64,000 nucleotides of DNA. Source: a virus. The stretch is from positions 62,001-126,000 of the IMG/VR virus record IMGVR_UViG_3300046461_000454; one strand, 5' to 3'. Under the pieces are notes generated by a model. The model worked only from the letters and a program-made list of their open reading frames with translations, was not told the origin of the DNA and did no database searches. Position numbers and translations under genes: made by a program. Of this stretch, positions 2,473 through 63,078 are shown one piece after another (position 1 is the first letter of the stretch; every line of letters starts with the position of its first letter).

Positions 2473-3000
2473 ATGACTAACTTCTACAGGGGACAGCAGC
2501 TTGGCCGGAATGATCTAAACATCTATCTGGTCAATGCCGCCAACACGCCGGTGAACGCCGCGGAGATTTCGTACGCCCTGTACGACTTCACGACGGGTCA
2601 GGAGGTGCTTGTTGGTATCCCCTTGCGCATTCCGGCCAACCCGTCGGTTGGGGAGTACTTCGCGAGCATCATCGTCCCGCTTGACGCCAATCTGGGCGAG
2701 TACCGGGTCCGCTGGACGTTCCGTGAGATCATCGGCGGTGCGCAGCAGCAGGTGGTGCAGGAGTTCTCGGTCACCGACAAGGCGGGGCTGTCTACTAGCA
2801 GCGCGAGCATGATCACCGGGGGTGCTATCAACGCGACGGCGATTGAATACGACCTGATGGGCCGTCTGCGCATTCTACTTAGAGACAACTGCGTTGGCGG
2901 TGAGGAGCTGGTCGAGGTAGACTTAGGCGGGGAGAGAGTGGTCATTAGTATGGAAGATCTCTGGAGGGCGGTGAAGGATGCAGACGCACCCACAACTTAA
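2473..3000 (+). CDS. fractured virion protein, N-terminal piece ending in a split-intein N-half
   Basis: A 175-aa product in two parts. Residues 1-139 are the N-extein: an Ig-like domain (LNIYLVNA, ISYALYDFTTG, GEYRVRWTF, QEFSVTD) followed by a helix ending LLRDN. Residues 140-175 begin at Cys140 with CVGGEELVEVDLGGERV..SMEDLW and read as the first block of an intein. The gene stops there, and no intein C-block is present. The matching C-half begins at 3879. After trans-splicing the junction would read LLRDN|SPDRNYHF. The last 23 nt overlap the nuclease gene at 2978. The N-extein has an apparent paralogue in the 1229-2044 product, so the host protein is probably a virion component. Confidence 0.82.
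   Translation: MTNFYRGQQLGRNDLNIYLVNAANTPVNAAEISYALYDFTTGQEVLVGIPLRIPANPSVGEYFASIIVPLDANLGEYRVRWTFREIIGGAQQQVVQEFSVTDKAGLSTSSASMITGGAINATAIEYDLMGRLRILLRDNCVGGEELVEVDLGGERVVISMEDLWRAVKDADAPTT
2890..2997 (+). other. split intein, N-terminal fragment (36 aa)
   Basis: Runs from the Cys140 codon TGC at 2890-2892 to the last sense codon. It aligns without gaps over its first 25 residues to the start of the complete intein at 4524: C/S at position 1, V.V near position 8, GE(E/R), and S(L/M)EDL(Y/W). The nucleophile is Cys1. At 36 aa against a 124-aa C-fragment the break is close to the N-terminus, the atypical split pattern, rather than the usual long-N/short-C split of DnaE inteins. Confidence 0.82.
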
Positions 3001-3886
3001 GCCGCTGCTAGTCAAGTATGGAATTTCTGCCGACCTGTTCTCGAAAAAAGGGCGTCTACCTCGTGATCTAAAGTGGGTGCGAGAGAAGCGCCGCGACATC
3101 ATTACGGAGCTGCATTCCGCTGGAGTTCCTTGGTTAGATATCTGTGGGATTACCGGCCTCTCTTTGGCAGCGATCCAGAGGGGAACGCGAGCTACGTGGA
3201 ACGAGGCCTCTCGCGACAATCGCCGGGCCAGCGCCGCACGAACGGCGCGGGCTCGGAAAGGCGAGTTGAAGCCGTGGCTGAGCGATCAGCTAGAACGTGA
3301 CTGGAAAGCTGGAAAGTTTGACTTTCACCGCGGTAGGGAGCGTTCGGAGGTAGAGCGAGAGGCCTTGCGGGCCGCTCATGCGCGACCGGAGGTCAAAGCA
3401 CGTATCGTGAGGGCCGCCAAGGATAGATGGTTGAGGCCAGCCGAGCGTGAGCACTTGTTGCGTTTTCATCGTTCTAAGGTTGAAAGGCGGCGCCGCTCAG
3501 AGGCTCAAGCAGCTCGCATGAAGGCGGAGCCGTCCAAGTGGGTCCGTGGCAAGTCGGAGCGCGTGACTCTTCGGAAGGGCACCAGGGCGGAGGTGCTGAC
3601 CCGCAGTAGTTTTGAGAGACGGGCGATCGAGATCCTGGAAGCGAGCCCAGATGTGGTCTCCTATGCGTTCGAGGAGTCCCTGCGGGACGCTTCTGGGTGC
3701 TTCTTGCCGGACTTCATCGTTTCGTTCGAGGATGGCTCTAAGACGCTGATTGAAGTGAAGGCTGCCTGGGTGTTGAAGTTGCCGTCTAACCACCAGGTTC
3801 GACGTAGGCTGGCGCGAGCCCGTCGGTATGCCCACGCGCAGGGCTGGGATTTTGCCGTGTGTACGGAGGTGCAGCTCTATGCTTGA
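2978..3886 (+). CDS. putative homing endonuclease, TnsA/PD-(D/E)XK-like
   Basis: A 302-aa free-standing nuclease gene between the two halves of a split intein. Residues 35-65 look like a helix-turn-helix (AGVPWLDICGITGLSLAAIQ). Residues 75-200 are very basic. Residues 205-265 give a restriction-endonuclease-fold signature: FERRAIEILE (Glu213), LPDFIV (Asp245) and LIEVKAAW (Glu259, Lys261), the E...D...ExK spacing typical of TnsA-type nucleases. The start overlaps the N-intein gene by 23 nt and has GGAGG at 2963-2967. Its 3' end overlaps the next start by 8 nt. Split inteins with an intervening endonuclease were described as 'fractured genes', with a Vsr-like nuclease family; this catalytic motif looks TnsA-like instead. 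Homing activity is inferred from position. Confidence 0.75.
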   Translation: MQTHPQLKPLLVKYGISADLFSKKGRLPRDLKWVREKRRDIITELHSAGVPWLDICGITGLSLAAIQRGTRATWNEASRDNRRASAARTARARKGELKPWLSDQLERDWKAGKFDFHRGRERSEVEREALRAAHARPEVKARIVRAAKDRWLRPAEREHLLRFHRSKVERRRRSEAQAARMKAEPSKWVRGKSERVTLRKGTRAEVLTRSSFERRAIEILEASPDVVSYAFEESLRDASGCFLPDFIVSFEDGSKTLIEVKAAWVLKLPSNHQVRRRLARARRYAHAQGWDFAVCTEVQLYA

Positions 3887-4250
3887 CGAGGGGTTAGCCA
3901 GTAGGGTCCGTGAGGCTTTCAGCCGGGGCGAGCTAAAGGTGTTGTCCGTGTCTCCGCTGGGTGAGCGAGCATGGAAGAAAATCTTGAATGTTACCCGGGC
4001 AGAAGTTGGGGCTGAGGAGATCATCGAGGTCACATCCGACCGCGGAGTCGCGGTCCTCACAGGGGGCCATCGAGTGTTTGTGACTCCTGTTGAGAAGTGC
4101 GAAGCTTGCCAATTGCGCGCCGGGATGTCCGTTGAAGGGGAGAGCATTCGCGGGGTGCGCCGTGTTGAGAGCCGGCAGTTCATGTTCGACCTGACGGCCG
4201 CGGATTGGCACAACTTCATTCTGGCTAGATCTGGGTTGCTCGTCTCAAAC
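3879..4250 (+). other. split intein, C-terminal fragment (124 aa)
   Basis: Contains the block B motif LTGGHRVF (TxxH) at about residues 60-67, and blocks F and G at the end: FDLTAADWHNFI, then GLLVSN followed by Ser+1 (TCC at 4251). The last residue is the expected Asn. The penultimate residue is Ser where most inteins have His. The early part (GLASRVREAFSRGELKVLSV) lines up with GLDRIKAAYTAGTLKVRSV in the complete intein downstream. Confidence 0.85.
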
Positions 4251-5228
4251 TCCCCGGATCGCAATTACCATTTCAGACCTCCATCTCACGAAGAGACGGT
4301 CCAACAGTTTAGTCGAGTGTTCGGTTACATCTGGGAGGACGTCGAGCTGCAGGAATACCTGAACCGCTCGCTCGACCTGATCTCGTCTGCGCCTCCGCGC
4401 ACGCCATTTCAGACAGTTGATCAGATGGTGATGTTCCGGCCTGAGTGGCGCACGTTACTCCTAACAGGGGCCATGATGTTTGCCATTCAGGCGGTACGTT
4501 TGAACTGGATCGCCGACGAATTTTCTCTTGTGGGCGACACAAAAGTCGCCGTCTTGATTGATGGTGAGGAGATTCACCTCAGCCTTGAGGATCTGTATGG
4601 CATCGTGGAAACGCCGGGTTTGGATAGAATCAAGGCGGCGTACACGGCTGGCACTCTCAAGGTCCGCTCTGTAGAGGGCCGGTCGGCGGTGGAGGCAGTC
4701 GTATCCGCGGTGCTGCGCCACTCTACGCCAAACAAACCGATCTATCGGGTATGCGTGGGCTCCGCTTCCGTGTCCGTGACAGGCGATCACAGCTTGTTCG
4801 GGCTCAGAGAGGGCGCGCTAGTTCCGGTGCGGGTCGACTCCCTTATGGTCGGCTCTAGCCTGGTTGTGGTGCGAGACGGCGTGGTGGGCTTGGAGCGCGT
4901 GGAGAGCATTTTGATGCTGCCCCCGGTGGACCACACCTACGATCTGTCGGTGCCCGGTCCGCAGAACTTCGTTCTGTCCAACGGGGTGCTCGCTCATAAC
5001 TCCTACTCGATCGGCGGGGTCTCTCTTGACCTCGAGAAGTCGAGCAAGTACGAAGGCGCGTTCCAGTCGCTGTCTGACCAGTTCGACAAACAGTTAGAGA
5101 ACACGAAGGCAACCGTGAACATCATCAAGGGTCTGCAGCAGCCCCGGTTCGGCATGGGCCTGCGAAGCGCGTTTGGCCCCTACGTGGGCCGCGGTGTCTT
5201 GAGCCCGCAGAAGTTCATCGGGTTCTAG
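3879..5228 (+). CDS. fractured virion protein, C-terminal piece with split-intein C-half and a complete mini-intein
   Basis: A 449-aa product. Residues 1-124 are the split-intein C-half, ending LLVSN|S. Residues 125-215 are extein (SPDRNYHFRPP ... RLNWIADEF). Residues 216-374 are an uninterrupted 159-aa mini-intein. Residues 375-449 are the final extein (SYSIGGVSLDLEKSSKY ... LSPQKFIGF). Removing both inteins and adding the 139-aa N-extein gives about 305 aa. The mini-intein sits before a conserved-looking SYSIGGVSLDLE segment, as inteins usually do. I chose ATG 3879 because GGAGGT lies at 3865-3870 and the start overlaps the nuclease stop. An in-frame upstream ATG at 3828 has no such site. 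The extein function is unknown; it lies among structural genes. Confidence 0.83.
   Translation: MLDEGLASRVREAFSRGELKVLSVSPLGERAWKKILNVTRAEVGAEEIIEVTSDRGVAVLTGGHRVFVTPVEKCEACQLRAGMSVEGESIRGVRRVESRQFMFDLTAADWHNFILARSGLLVSNSPDRNYHFRPPSHEETVQQFSRVFGYIWEDVELQEYLNRSLDLISSAPPRTPFQTVDQMVMFRPEWRTLLLTGAMMFAIQAVRLNWIADEFSLVGDTKVAVLIDGEEIHLSLEDLYGIVETPGLDRIKAAYTAGTLKVRSVEGRSAVEAVVSAVLRHSTPNKPIYRVCVGSASVSVTGDHSLFGLREGALVPVRVDSLMVGSSLVVVRDGVVGLERVESILMLPPVDHTYDLSVPGPQNFVLSNGVLAHNSYSIGGVSLDLEKSSKYEGAFQSLSDQFDKQLENTKATVNIIKGLQQPRFGMGLRSAFGPYVGRGVLSPQKFIGF
4524..5000 (+). other. complete cis mini-intein (159 aa, no endonuclease)
   Basis: Begins at Ser (TCT, 4524-4526) with SLVGDTKVAVLIDGEE. It carries block B SVTGDHSLF, block F TYDLSVPGPQNFVLS and block G GVLAHN, followed by Ser+1 (TCC at 5001). 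The canonical C-terminal His-Asn pair is present. Ser instead of Cys at position 1 is less common but known. No endonuclease domain is present. Its 159 aa nearly equals the 36+124 aa of the split intein in the same gene, and the two align along their length. Confidence 0.86.
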
Positions 5229-60579: not shown

Positions 60580-63078
60580 ATGGCGATCGTAGACATTTCA
60601 GCAAATCTGGATGGAGAGGCGACATTAGGCGCAGATGCGAGCGCGACCTACGCTGTGAGCTCGACTCAAGCCGGCGCAGCGATTCTAGCCGCTGAGGCCA
60701 TTATTGGTCCCATAGCGACTCTCGCTGGAGAGTCGACCCTGGATGCCACAGGAAGCCTCCCCGAGGCGTATCTTGATGGCGCTTCGACGCTGACCGGTGA
60801 GCCCGGCGTCTCTTTCACAACGACTGTGACTGTTGCTGGGGCGGCGGTTCAGACCGCCGACGCAACCGCCACATACCCACGTCAGTCGGCCCTCACTGCG
60901 TCTTCGATGGTGTCGATCGTCTTGCCGCCTGTCAGGCAGCGTGATGCCACTGCGGAGCTGACAGGCGAAGCTAGTTTGACGGTTATTGTTGATGTCCAGG
61001 GAGTAGCGAACCTGGCGGGCGAGTCATCAATGACCGCCCTCAATTTGGCCGTTACTGCGGACTTAGCTGGCCAGTCCTCGATGACGGCTTTAGGTAACCA
61101 GCAGGGCAGCGCCGGCCTTGAGCTACCCGGCGACTCCACGTTGACGGTCACCGTTACCGGTGCGCTTACGGCAGAAGCAGACTTGGCTGGCGAGTCGTCA
61201 ATGACCGCCCTCAATGGGGCCATCGATGCAGATCTGGCGGGCGCGTCGTCACTGACCGCTGTGGCGGGCCTGCGTCAGGTGAACACCGCGGGGCTCGCGG
61301 GCTCGTCTACTTTGACGGCGACTCCAAGGGTCAATGCAGTAGCGAGCCTTGCTGGTTCATCTGCGCTAACTGCGACGGCTGCCGCGGGGCTAGGCAACAT
61401 TGTATTGGCCGACGGTCTGGCCACGATGGGAGCGACCGCTACCGTCGCTGCGAGTTCGGCTGCTGCGATCCACGGCGACTCGACCCTCGGGGCAGTCTCG
61501 AACTACGCAAGAGTACAAGCCTCGGTTGACATCGTTGGTAGCTCTGAGCTCGCCGCAGACGGAACATTTGTTGGCGCGTACGGTGTCGATAGCTACGGGG
61601 GAAGCCCATACGGCAGCTCTCTTCAGAGCTACGGTATCGAATCGGCTACGGTTTTGTCTTCCACTCAGGTTCGCATCCGCTACACAGCGATGTTCGATCC
61701 TGGGTTTCCGCTGCTGCTGTCGATAGCGAATTACTCGATTACGCCGCCCCTGGTCGTTGACTTCATAGTGCTGGAGACTGCGCAGTCGGTCGTCCTCCAC
61801 ACCGAGCCTCTGGCGGCCATTCTTTACACGGTTACGATTTCTGCGGCTCGCGGGTTTCTTGGTCAGCCACTCGACCCGGCGCTCAACAGTGCGCAGTTCA
61901 CCGGCGTCTTGGTGGAGCCCTCTTTCTACGCCGTGGCCACTGGGCCGACTCGTGTTCGAGCGGTCTTCTCCGAGCCAATGCTCCCTGATTCGTTCGCTGA
62001 CCTCGCGGAGTACATCTTAACGGACTCCAACGGGACCCCGGTTGCGATCACGTCCATCACTATTGAGCAGTCCGACCCCGATCCGGCTAGGTCCATTGCC
62101 CTTGTCTTGGGCGAAGAACTGGTACATGCGCGCCACTATCGGCTCACCGTCCTTAGCGGGGTCGTCTCTCTGACCCATGCCCCCGTGGTCCCGAACACCG
62201 ATAGCTTTCAGTATGTGGGGAACCTTCTACAGACTCAGATCCCAGTGCCGGAATTCTCCGGTGAGGTTTTGTATGGTCTGTACGGCATCCATAACGGTCT
62301 CGTCTTTTTCTCACCCGCTCTGGAAAACTCCGCGGCGAATTCAATCATTGAAGTTGACCAAGTCGACGTCTGTACGCGGGCCTATGATGAGTATCACCCG
62401 CCTCAGCCGCTCGATCCGCGTGCATTGCTGACCCACGGACTCGACCTGGTTCCGACGCCCGCAGTCAGCGTTATCAACTCGGTTGACTGGGTCCTATGGG
62501 CGGCCTTCCCTCGTCTTGTGGAGGCCCGGTTTGATCTTGGCATGGGCTCGAGCGAGTTCCCGCTCGAAGACACCGTGCCCCGGCCGACAGACGATTGGGC
62601 ATCGCTCACGGTTACACGAATATGGCCCCCTGGCCGAGTGTCTCTGTTGAACGGCATGCCCTGGAAACTTTTCGAGGTGGATGGGACATCCGCCAGTCTC
62701 GGCGCCGTCGCGGGTGGGTTGATGACGGTCACAGGGCTTTCGGGGATGAGCAATCTTGACAGGGGTCAGATCTTGACCATCACGAAAGCCGCCAATCCTG
62801 CGAACAACGGAAACTTCTTGATTGTGACGGTCCCTTCATCGAGCAGCGTCCAAGTAGAGAGTGCTACCGCTGTGGGCTCCGATGCGAACAACGGGAACCT
62901 AGTCTGGACGAAGCCCGGGGCCTTTATTGTCGCCGACAACCTGACTCCATTCCCACCCCCAGGGCCTTCGAGCACAACTGTTTTGGGCCTCTTGCTAGCA
63001 GGTGAAGCTGAGCTCCATACCCCGGACTTCGAGCTAGCGGGTGAAGCCACTGTGGAGGCAGACGCTCTAGTCATCTAA
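60580..63078 (+). CDS. repeat-rich tail fibre protein (832 aa)
   Basis: An 832-aa protein. The first 280 residues are made of ~17-20-aa units around the motif ADLAGESSMTAL (also ANLAG.SS.TAL, AGLAGSSTLTA, ASLAGSSALTA), likely a repetitive beta structure. Residues 330-560 hold SbsA/Big_5-type Ig modules (ATVLSSTQVRIRYTAMFDPG; 'VRAVFSEPMLPDSFADLAEYILTDSNGTPVAITS'). Residues 560-800 are a strand-rich, probably receptor-facing part. The last 30 residues return to the repeat motif (LAGEAELHTPDFELAGEAT). The ATG follows the stop of the giant upstream gene by 13 nt. A trimeric side fibre is likely. Confidence 0.75.
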   Translation: MAIVDISANLDGEATLGADASATYAVSSTQAGAAILAAEAIIGPIATLAGESTLDATGSLPEAYLDGASTLTGEPGVSFTTTVTVAGAAVQTADATATYPRQSALTASSMVSIVLPPVRQRDATAELTGEASLTVIVDVQGVANLAGESSMTALNLAVTADLAGQSSMTALGNQQGSAGLELPGDSTLTVTVTGALTAEADLAGESSMTALNGAIDADLAGASSLTAVAGLRQVNTAGLAGSSTLTATPRVNAVASLAGSSALTATAAAGLGNIVLADGLATMGATATVAASSAAAIHGDSTLGAVSNYARVQASVDIVGSSELAADGTFVGAYGVDSYGGSPYGSSLQSYGIESATVLSSTQVRIRYTAMFDPGFPLLLSIANYSITPPLVVDFIVLETAQSVVLHTEPLAAILYTVTISAARGFLGQPLDPALNSAQFTGVLVEPSFYAVATGPTRVRAVFSEPMLPDSFADLAEYILTDSNGTPVAITSITIEQSDPDPARSIALVLGEELVHARHYRLTVLSGVVSLTHAPVVPNTDSFQYVGNLLQTQIPVPEFSGEVLYGLYGIHNGLVFFSPALENSAANSIIEVDQVDVCTRAYDEYHPPQPLDPRALLTHGLDLVPTPAVSVINSVDWVLWAAFPRLVEARFDLGMGSSEFPLEDTVPRPTDDWASLTVTRIWPPGRVSLLNGMPWKLFEVDGTSASLGAVAGGLMTVTGLSGMSNLDRGQILTITKAANPANNGNFLIVTVPSSSSVQVESATAVGSDANNGNLVWTKPGAFIVADNLTPFPPPGPSSTTVLGLLLAGEAELHTPDFELAGEATVEADALVI
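60590..61390 (+). repeat. LAGESS-type short repeats in the fibre gene
   Basis: At least ten degenerate units of about 51-60 bp encode ADLAGESSMTAL-type motifs. Some are nearly identical in DNA: the stretches near 61016 and 61189 encode the same LAGESSMTALN with only a few silent changes. Such repeats recombine easily, so copy number may differ among relatives. Confidence 0.8.

Follow-up and report, generated by a model that had tools for sequence, protein, structure and literature searches.

A putative virion protein gene of a large phage, apparently fractured by a split intein with a TnsA-like nuclease gene in the break

How can a large phage keep a gene whose protein is encoded in two pieces, with a nuclease gene lodged between them? 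This question is raised by a 64,000-nucleotide (nt) stretch from a large bacterial virus (positions 62,001 to 126,000 of IMG/VR record IMGVR_UViG_3300046461_000454; hereafter the window, to which all coordinates refer unless a relative is named, every listed feature lying on the plus strand). Here, a single putative virion protein is encoded by two separate open reading frames (ORFs), which an initial annotation had interpreted as one gene broken by a split intein. Where split inteins come from is a long-standing question; in the prevailing view, the host gene is broken when a nuclease gene invades an intein. ‘Fractured genes’, in which a split intein breaks a host gene and a stand-alone endonuclease gene lies in between, were reportedly described by Dassa et al in 2009, mainly from phages, and are said to have been proposed as a step in split-intein origin. 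At the present locus, gene order, continuity of unsplit homologues, splicing residues, the fold and motif of the nuclease, its restriction to one site and a tract of recently imported flanking DNA, all taken directly from the sequence, point to a fractured gene that is maintained by a split, homing intein (probability of about 0.9) and whose two pieces would be joined by trans-splicing.

The first piece, ORF1 (2473-3000, 175 amino acids (aa)), consists of a 139-aa extein (2473-2889), which homologues and a structure model suggest to be a BppU/Ig-like beta-sandwich with a helix, and a 36-aa intein N-part (IntN; 2890-2997), which runs from Cys140 to the stop codon directly behind it (2998-3000). 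This N-part begins CVGGEELVEVDLGGERVVISMEDLW, carries Cys1 and motifs A and N2, and is conserved in 12 alleles. The second piece, ORF3 (3879-5228, 449 aa), starts with ATG and opens with the 124-aa intein C-part (IntC; 3879-4250), in which motifs B, F and G and a terminal Asn are recognized from homologues and an intein profile. Its end, WHNFILARSGLLVSN, reads ...LLVSN|SPDRN, and the extein goes on as SPDRNYHF. Between the pieces lies a separate nuclease ORF (2978-3886, 302 aa), which overlaps ORF1 by 23 nt and ORF3 by 8 nt. Both downstream ORFs are preceded by Shine-Dalgarno (SD)-like sequences that are likely ribosome binding sites, GGAGG for the nuclease gene (2963-2967, spacing 10 nt) and GGAGGTG for the C-part gene (3865-3871, spacing 7 nt). 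On these points, the initial annotation, which had placed the start of IntN at Cys140 and the end of a 124-aa IntC at Asn|Ser, and had noted the intervening ORF, both overlaps and both ribosome binding sites, proved correct to the base. It did not extend to the recurrence in relatives, the second fracture site in the gene or the trace of homing described below.

We refer to the insertion point of the split intein as site a and to homologous loci from IMG/VR contigs or phage records by labels (L001 etc.). ORF3 also holds, at a second insertion point (site b), a complete contiguous mini-intein of 159 aa (intein b; 4524-5000, Ser1 ... His-Asn), recognized by PF14890, TIGR01443 and TIGR01445 and by comparison with L001, L002 and L004. 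Because this intein would also be removed, the predicted mature protein has 305 aa (139 + 91 + 75): the N-terminal extein, a middle extein (4251-4523, 91 aa, starting Ser+1 Pro Asp Arg Asn in the homologue alignment) and a C-terminal extein (5001-5225, 75 aa, starting Ser+1 Tyr Ser Ile Gly Gly, likewise delimited from homologues; stop 5226-5228). The intact homologue in L005 is exactly as long.

The gene is uninterrupted in IMG/VR contigs L005-L014 and about 50 further distinct alleles. The 305-aa protein of L005, which is 95-99% identical to the window over each extein piece, reads LLRDN|NPDRN and DEF|NYSIGG, with no gap and no extra residue at either junction. Thus, the extein continuity predicted for unsplit homologues was found exactly at LLRDN|xPDRN. 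The N-terminal extein of the window is 93-100% identical to those of L001, L005 and L031, all of which are unbroken at site a. The first residue behind the intein (+1), where splicing requires Ser, Cys or Thr, differs with occupancy: at site a, it is Ser or Cys in 12/12 intein-bearing alleles and in 1/67 intein-free ones, the intact alleles having mostly Asn, and at site b, it is Ser or Cys in 12/12 intein alleles and in 4/67 empty ones. As the scan pattern that found many of the empty alleles favored Asn or Asp at +1, site a was recounted on loci matching a +1-blind pattern, which gave 8/8 versus 1/45 (Fisher P=1e-8); shared ancestry of the alleles means that such P values overstate how independent the counts are. 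When 293 twelve-residue windows of the host protein are ranked by conservation, sites a and b take ranks 19 and 9, both being in its best conserved stretches. Ser at +1, otherwise rare in intein-free alleles, occurs in L003, L024, L073 and L106 (site b) and in L061 (site a); these residues may be scars of past inteins that were lost precisely.

The cassette of IntN, TnsA-like nuclease gene and IntC occurs at one identical codon in 12 distinct alleles, the window included. The arrangement in the window is not due to chance, since the same three-part order at the same codon recurs in 11 other distinct alleles, many of the compared contigs being fragments. The nuclease is undecayed in the window, L002, L003, L015 and L019-L024, and decayed in L028 and L029. 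L015 is the 485-kb phage record LR745208.1, and the same locus is also present in IMG/VR as L026.

The proposed intein nature of the two parts is borne out by profile comparison. A profile built from eight joined site-a N- and C-parts and searched against solved structures matches the inteins Mja KlbA (2jmz, E=2.1e-6), Pho RadA (4e2u, 3.2e-4) and PI-PfuI (1dq3, 1.5e-3) as well as further Hint structures. Cys1, T97xxH100, D140 in block F, H147 and the terminal Asn (numbering of the joined window intein) are invariant in the eight homologues, and the residues of a class 1 intein are present: Cys or Ser at position 1, TxxH in motif B, a terminal Asn, and Ser, Cys or Thr at +1. Intein b of the window matches PF14890 (3.7e-14), TIGR01443 (4.9e-11) and TIGR01445 (7.9e-7). 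The inteins of the two sites can be aligned and share the same split position, and they form two separate groups in a tree (100/100). With an IntN of 29-36 aa in most copies, the split falls between motifs N2 and B, which places these inteins in the atypical (S1) split class.

The in-between ORF, which the initial annotation had called nuclease-type, is by Pfam, fold and motif a TnsA-like PD-(D/E)XK nuclease. The TnsA N domain (PF08722) is matched at 8.9e-8 by the window copy and at 1.2e-9 by the L015 copy; in the window, the match covers aa 228-297 (3659-3868). An AlphaFold model (mean pLDDT 84) retrieved TnsA (1t0f, 1f1z) as the only PDB matches below 0.001 in Foldseek (3.8e-5, probability 1.00). 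The E...PD...ExK motif is present, and E213, D245, E259 and K261 are invariant in ten homologues, while overall nuclease identity among alleles is 40-57%. The first 200 aa form helices, including a stretch that resembles a helix-turn-helix, and give no catalytic-family match; the nuclease profile weakly matches a repeat protein at aa 35-69. Thus, the protein shares its catalytic domain with Tn7 TnsA and other PD-(D/E)XK nucleases, but differs in its distinct N-terminal helical region and in being tied to one intein site. The TnsA partner genes tnsB and tnsC are absent at the locus, the direct neighbors of the nuclease gene being the two gene pieces, here and at the other loci. The nuclease domain also matches PHROG 218 (1.7e-8), which comprises head completion proteins similar to gp4 of phage T4; in contrast to these annotated virion proteins, the present protein lies between intein halves, has an intact catalytic motif and contains an extra N-terminal half.

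All detected members of this TnsA-like family sit between the two intein halves at site a. A single-sequence scan of viral contigs found 0 loci and an alignment-based scan 12; with the nuclease alignment, no relative was found in a scan of GTDB genomes, and among phage records none besides LR745208.1 showed meaningful similarity. As is characteristic of homing endonucleases, the gene is inserted at a conserved site that is intact in relatives. The protein is a putative homing endonuclease, with DNA cleavage and its specificity predicted from the sequence.

A trace of homing is visible in comparison with a sister phage (L001), which lacks intein a and, in a 12-kb comparison, shares ~98-99% identity with the window along most of the length. 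Left of site a, the last 73 bases (2817-2889) contain 14 differences, compared with 4 in the preceding 344. On the right, a divergent tract extends through the middle extein into intein b (4251-4627), with 77 differences in the first 366 bases and ~1% outside. Divergence within the tract is ~20%, mostly at third positions, and near-identity resumes beyond it. In the first 120 bases past site a, L001 differs from L005 at 8 positions and the window from L005 at 28; because L001 and L005 agree while the window differs, the foreign segment lies in the window lineage. These flanks, as seen in one sister-phage pair and L005, match the footprint expected of co-conversion during homing. The tract ends inside intein b: in the window, the N-part of this intein is diverged and continues directly into a C-part almost the same as in L001, and the Vsr-like nuclease found there in L001 is missing. 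In the simplest reading, the donor had a nuclease-less intein b, and transfer at site a would have removed the nuclease of the neighboring element. Interference between neighboring inteins and forced co-conversion of the +1 residue have been described for haloarchaeal MCM inteins (PMC10643990).

The site restriction and the tract also bear on the possibility that the split intein splices while the nuclease is an unrelated passenger, either a homing endonuclease gene (HEG) for another site or a protein with another role. Free-standing HEG-like ORFs do adjoin the gene in other phages (L003, L007, L113), and both the lack of a catalytic-family match in the N-terminal half and the predicted status of cleavage would be compatible with this. 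We nevertheless consider a passenger improbable, given that the family was found nowhere but between these two intein halves, that the flank-import tract is centered on site a and that few parts of the gene are as conserved as the insertion site.

The overlaps of 23 and 8 nt between ORFs in successive frames could also suggest one full-length intein with an embedded endonuclease, expressed by programmed ribosomal frameshifting at both overlaps. Among loci with an intact nuclease, however, the relative frames of the three site-a ORFs vary, being (0,1,2), (0,2,0), (0,0,1) or (0,0,2), and in L015 and L024, an in-frame stop separates the N-piece from a nuclease in the same frame. Because frame order differs among loci, no conserved programmed frameshift rebuilds one ORF, and this explanation, against which also stand the varying overlap lengths, the SD sequences before the downstream starts in many loci and the placement between N2 and B, where contiguous inteins have no endonuclease insertions (PMC6801210), was rejected as very unlikely.

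We see just as slight a chance that the locus is a dead pseudogene, in which insertion of the nuclease disrupted the gene and the pieces are decaying, although some relatives do contain decayed nucleases (L028, L029). In almost all alleles, none of the three ORFs is interrupted, across the whole range of nuclease identity, and differences in IntN, IntC and nuclease rank third > first > second by codon position, which indicates purifying selection and led us to reject the pseudogene. Moreover, the catalytic residues are invariant, the +1 nucleophile is retained, the middle extein is 95.6% conserved in protein despite ~19% DNA divergence from L001, and the split intein is intact even where the nuclease is decayed. 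That the window is an assembly chimera, as its metagenomic origin and the sharp local divergence step relative to L001 might suggest, is hardly credible, since separately assembled records, phage record LR745208.1 included, contain the same arrangement, and the divergence begins and ends exactly where the cassette and its two flanks do, the proteins remaining in frame throughout.

Some points do weigh against the fractured-gene explanation. The penultimate His is replaced by Ser in the window and most site-a copies (it is His in L015 and in all site-b copies); this residue is dispensable in some inteins, and its loss may slow the reaction. The 36-aa IntN alone is not recognized by the hidden Markov models of Pfam and NCBIfam, and was identified solely by homology within its own family and to intein b. 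Furthermore, the 79 distinct alleles compared are phylogenetically non-independent, and no donor was found for the co-converted flank.

Under the favored reading of a split, homing intein, the two polypeptides would be translated from one overlapping string of genes, and the 36-aa IntN tail of the first piece would associate with the 124-aa IntC head of the second. Trans-splicing by Cys1, Asn124 of IntC and Ser+1 would join ...LLRDN to SPDRN..., and intein b would be spliced out in cis, before or after this step, to yield the 305-aa protein. The separately translated TnsA-like nuclease would be the mobility partner of the split intein, most likely cutting the highly conserved intein-free site at the codons around RDN|NPDRNYHF, and repair would then copy the whole IntN-nuclease-IntC cassette into the recipient allele, together with its flanks and the codon for Ser+1.

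How breaks of this kind originate and spread can be seen from related viruses, in which this gene is whole, broken once or broken twice. Twelve alleles have an intein at site b. The intein is contiguous in two of them (window, L090) and split in ten (L001, L002, L004, L022, L029, L097, L107, L113, L114 and L117) around a different nuclease, of which L029 retains a remnant. This nuclease matches REase_MTES_1575, DUF559 and, weakly, Vsr. In the window, the two intein parts that flank the Vsr-like nuclease in relatives are joined as intein b. L002 (6631-10279) and L022 (4508-8229) carry both cassettes with complete nucleases, the protein being encoded in three pieces with two unrelated nucleases in between; such alleles would need two separate trans-splicing reactions for one protein. 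Other alleles show loss. In L028 (5004-5282), the nuclease is reduced to a remnant and the intein is still split; in L029 (5013-6329), the site-a nuclease is truncated and in frame with IntC, both inteins being present and both nucleases decayed; and in L117 (3875-5446), the Vsr-like site-b nuclease is fused in frame to IntC. One gene family thus offers a natural series of alleles: empty, fractured, doubly fractured, split but without nuclease, and joined. As some of these come from near-identical phages, both the homing event and the direction of the changes can be followed base by base.

Taken jointly, these alleles suggest a wider scenario, which we regard as reasonably likely. Two related inteins in one gene, with the same unusual split near the N-terminus, would be spread by unrelated nucleases, TnsA-like at site a and Vsr-like at site b. 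In contiguous inteins, endonuclease domains are found at one other site, which has been explained by steric clash (PMC6801210); the position between N2 and B would be open to a nuclease gene here because the nuclease is a separate chain, free of this constraint, and nuclease families would be exchangeable there. The elements would compete, homing of one co-converting the flank and, in the window, bringing in the nuclease-less intein b. The alleles would then represent stages from intact through broken once and broken twice, with two orthogonal trans-splicing reactions, to nuclease lost yet split, and re-joined.

The founding set of fractured genes is said to consist of genes for enzymes of DNA synthesis and repair, half of the loci having nucleases of the Vsr/EDxHD type; these nucleases, reportedly common but not universal, are thus not defining. 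The present locus resembles that set in the break by a split intein, the continuity of intact homologues at the junction and the separate endonuclease ORF between the halves, and differs in that a structural gene is affected, the site-a nuclease is TnsA-like and not Vsr/EDxHD, the split lies near the intein N-terminus and relatives contain a second fracture of the same gene. Short N-parts are known from the split inteins AceL-TerL (25 aa), GOS-TerL (37 aa) and PolB16 OarG (15 aa), which share with the present inteins a long IntC and class-1-type residues, the 36-aa IntN being close in length to that of GOS-TerL; the parts of the two sources consulted report no nuclease gene in the break of these inteins (PMC11766414, PMC10189870). 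Here, such a gene is present, the host gene is different and several natural stages from split to joined occur. Another large phage, the jumbo phage MIJ3, has a fractured DNA polymerase B gene with a nuclease ORF between the halves (PMC6892783), but there the split follows motif N4, the canonical site, the nuclease is of the HNH type and the gene encodes a polymerase.

Against this background, the TnsA-like nuclease type, the nuclease gene between motifs N2 and B, the breakage of one gene into three pieces by two elements and the record, down to single bases, of how inteins were gained, lost their nuclease and were joined appear to be new. To our knowledge, a TnsA-type nuclease has not been linked to inteins before; a search for TnsA with homing endonucleases or inteins returned nothing relevant in the open-access literature, most subscription papers lying outside it, so that priority is not firm. 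The family adds about 22 new natural split inteins whose N-parts are short and which may be useful for protein labelling, and the natural intein pairs should be orthogonal, because both splice in the same protein.

For the host protein, a role as head-tail connector or adaptor, with an N-terminal domain of the Ig-like type, is probable; the ‘virion-type’ label of the initial annotation is plausible, though its support is weak. An intact homologue matches PHROG 17327, ‘head-tail connector’ (8.8e-4), and a distant homologue from Tunturi_5 carries the same annotation. In fold searches, the viral library returned phage proteins, some named BppU-type, and the best PDB match was a phage portal-adaptor complex (3.6e-3); as the PDB matches were all weak, we keep the function as probable.

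Immediately downstream of the gene, L003 (8895-10319), L007 (8565-9842) and L113 (5557-7167) have stand-alone nuclease-like ORFs that contain repeated segments and resemble the CapR-like/Vsr-like HEG group of PMC12350094. Many further intein matches are found in the record of L022 (G005, 70653-75362) and in G002, G004, G007 and W01, with up to 10 per record in these large phages, several of them within one 2414-aa open frame. Upstream in the window, an ORF (1229-2044) has at its end a second copy of the beta-sandwich module, a tandem paralogue that shares ~25-40% identity with the domain of the N-terminal extein and is also present in L001 (6805-7083) and most loci. It is followed by a small lysine-rich ORF (2048-2449), in which the repeat LMKDLxSRAKHNKKQE occurs twice, compared with once in L005.

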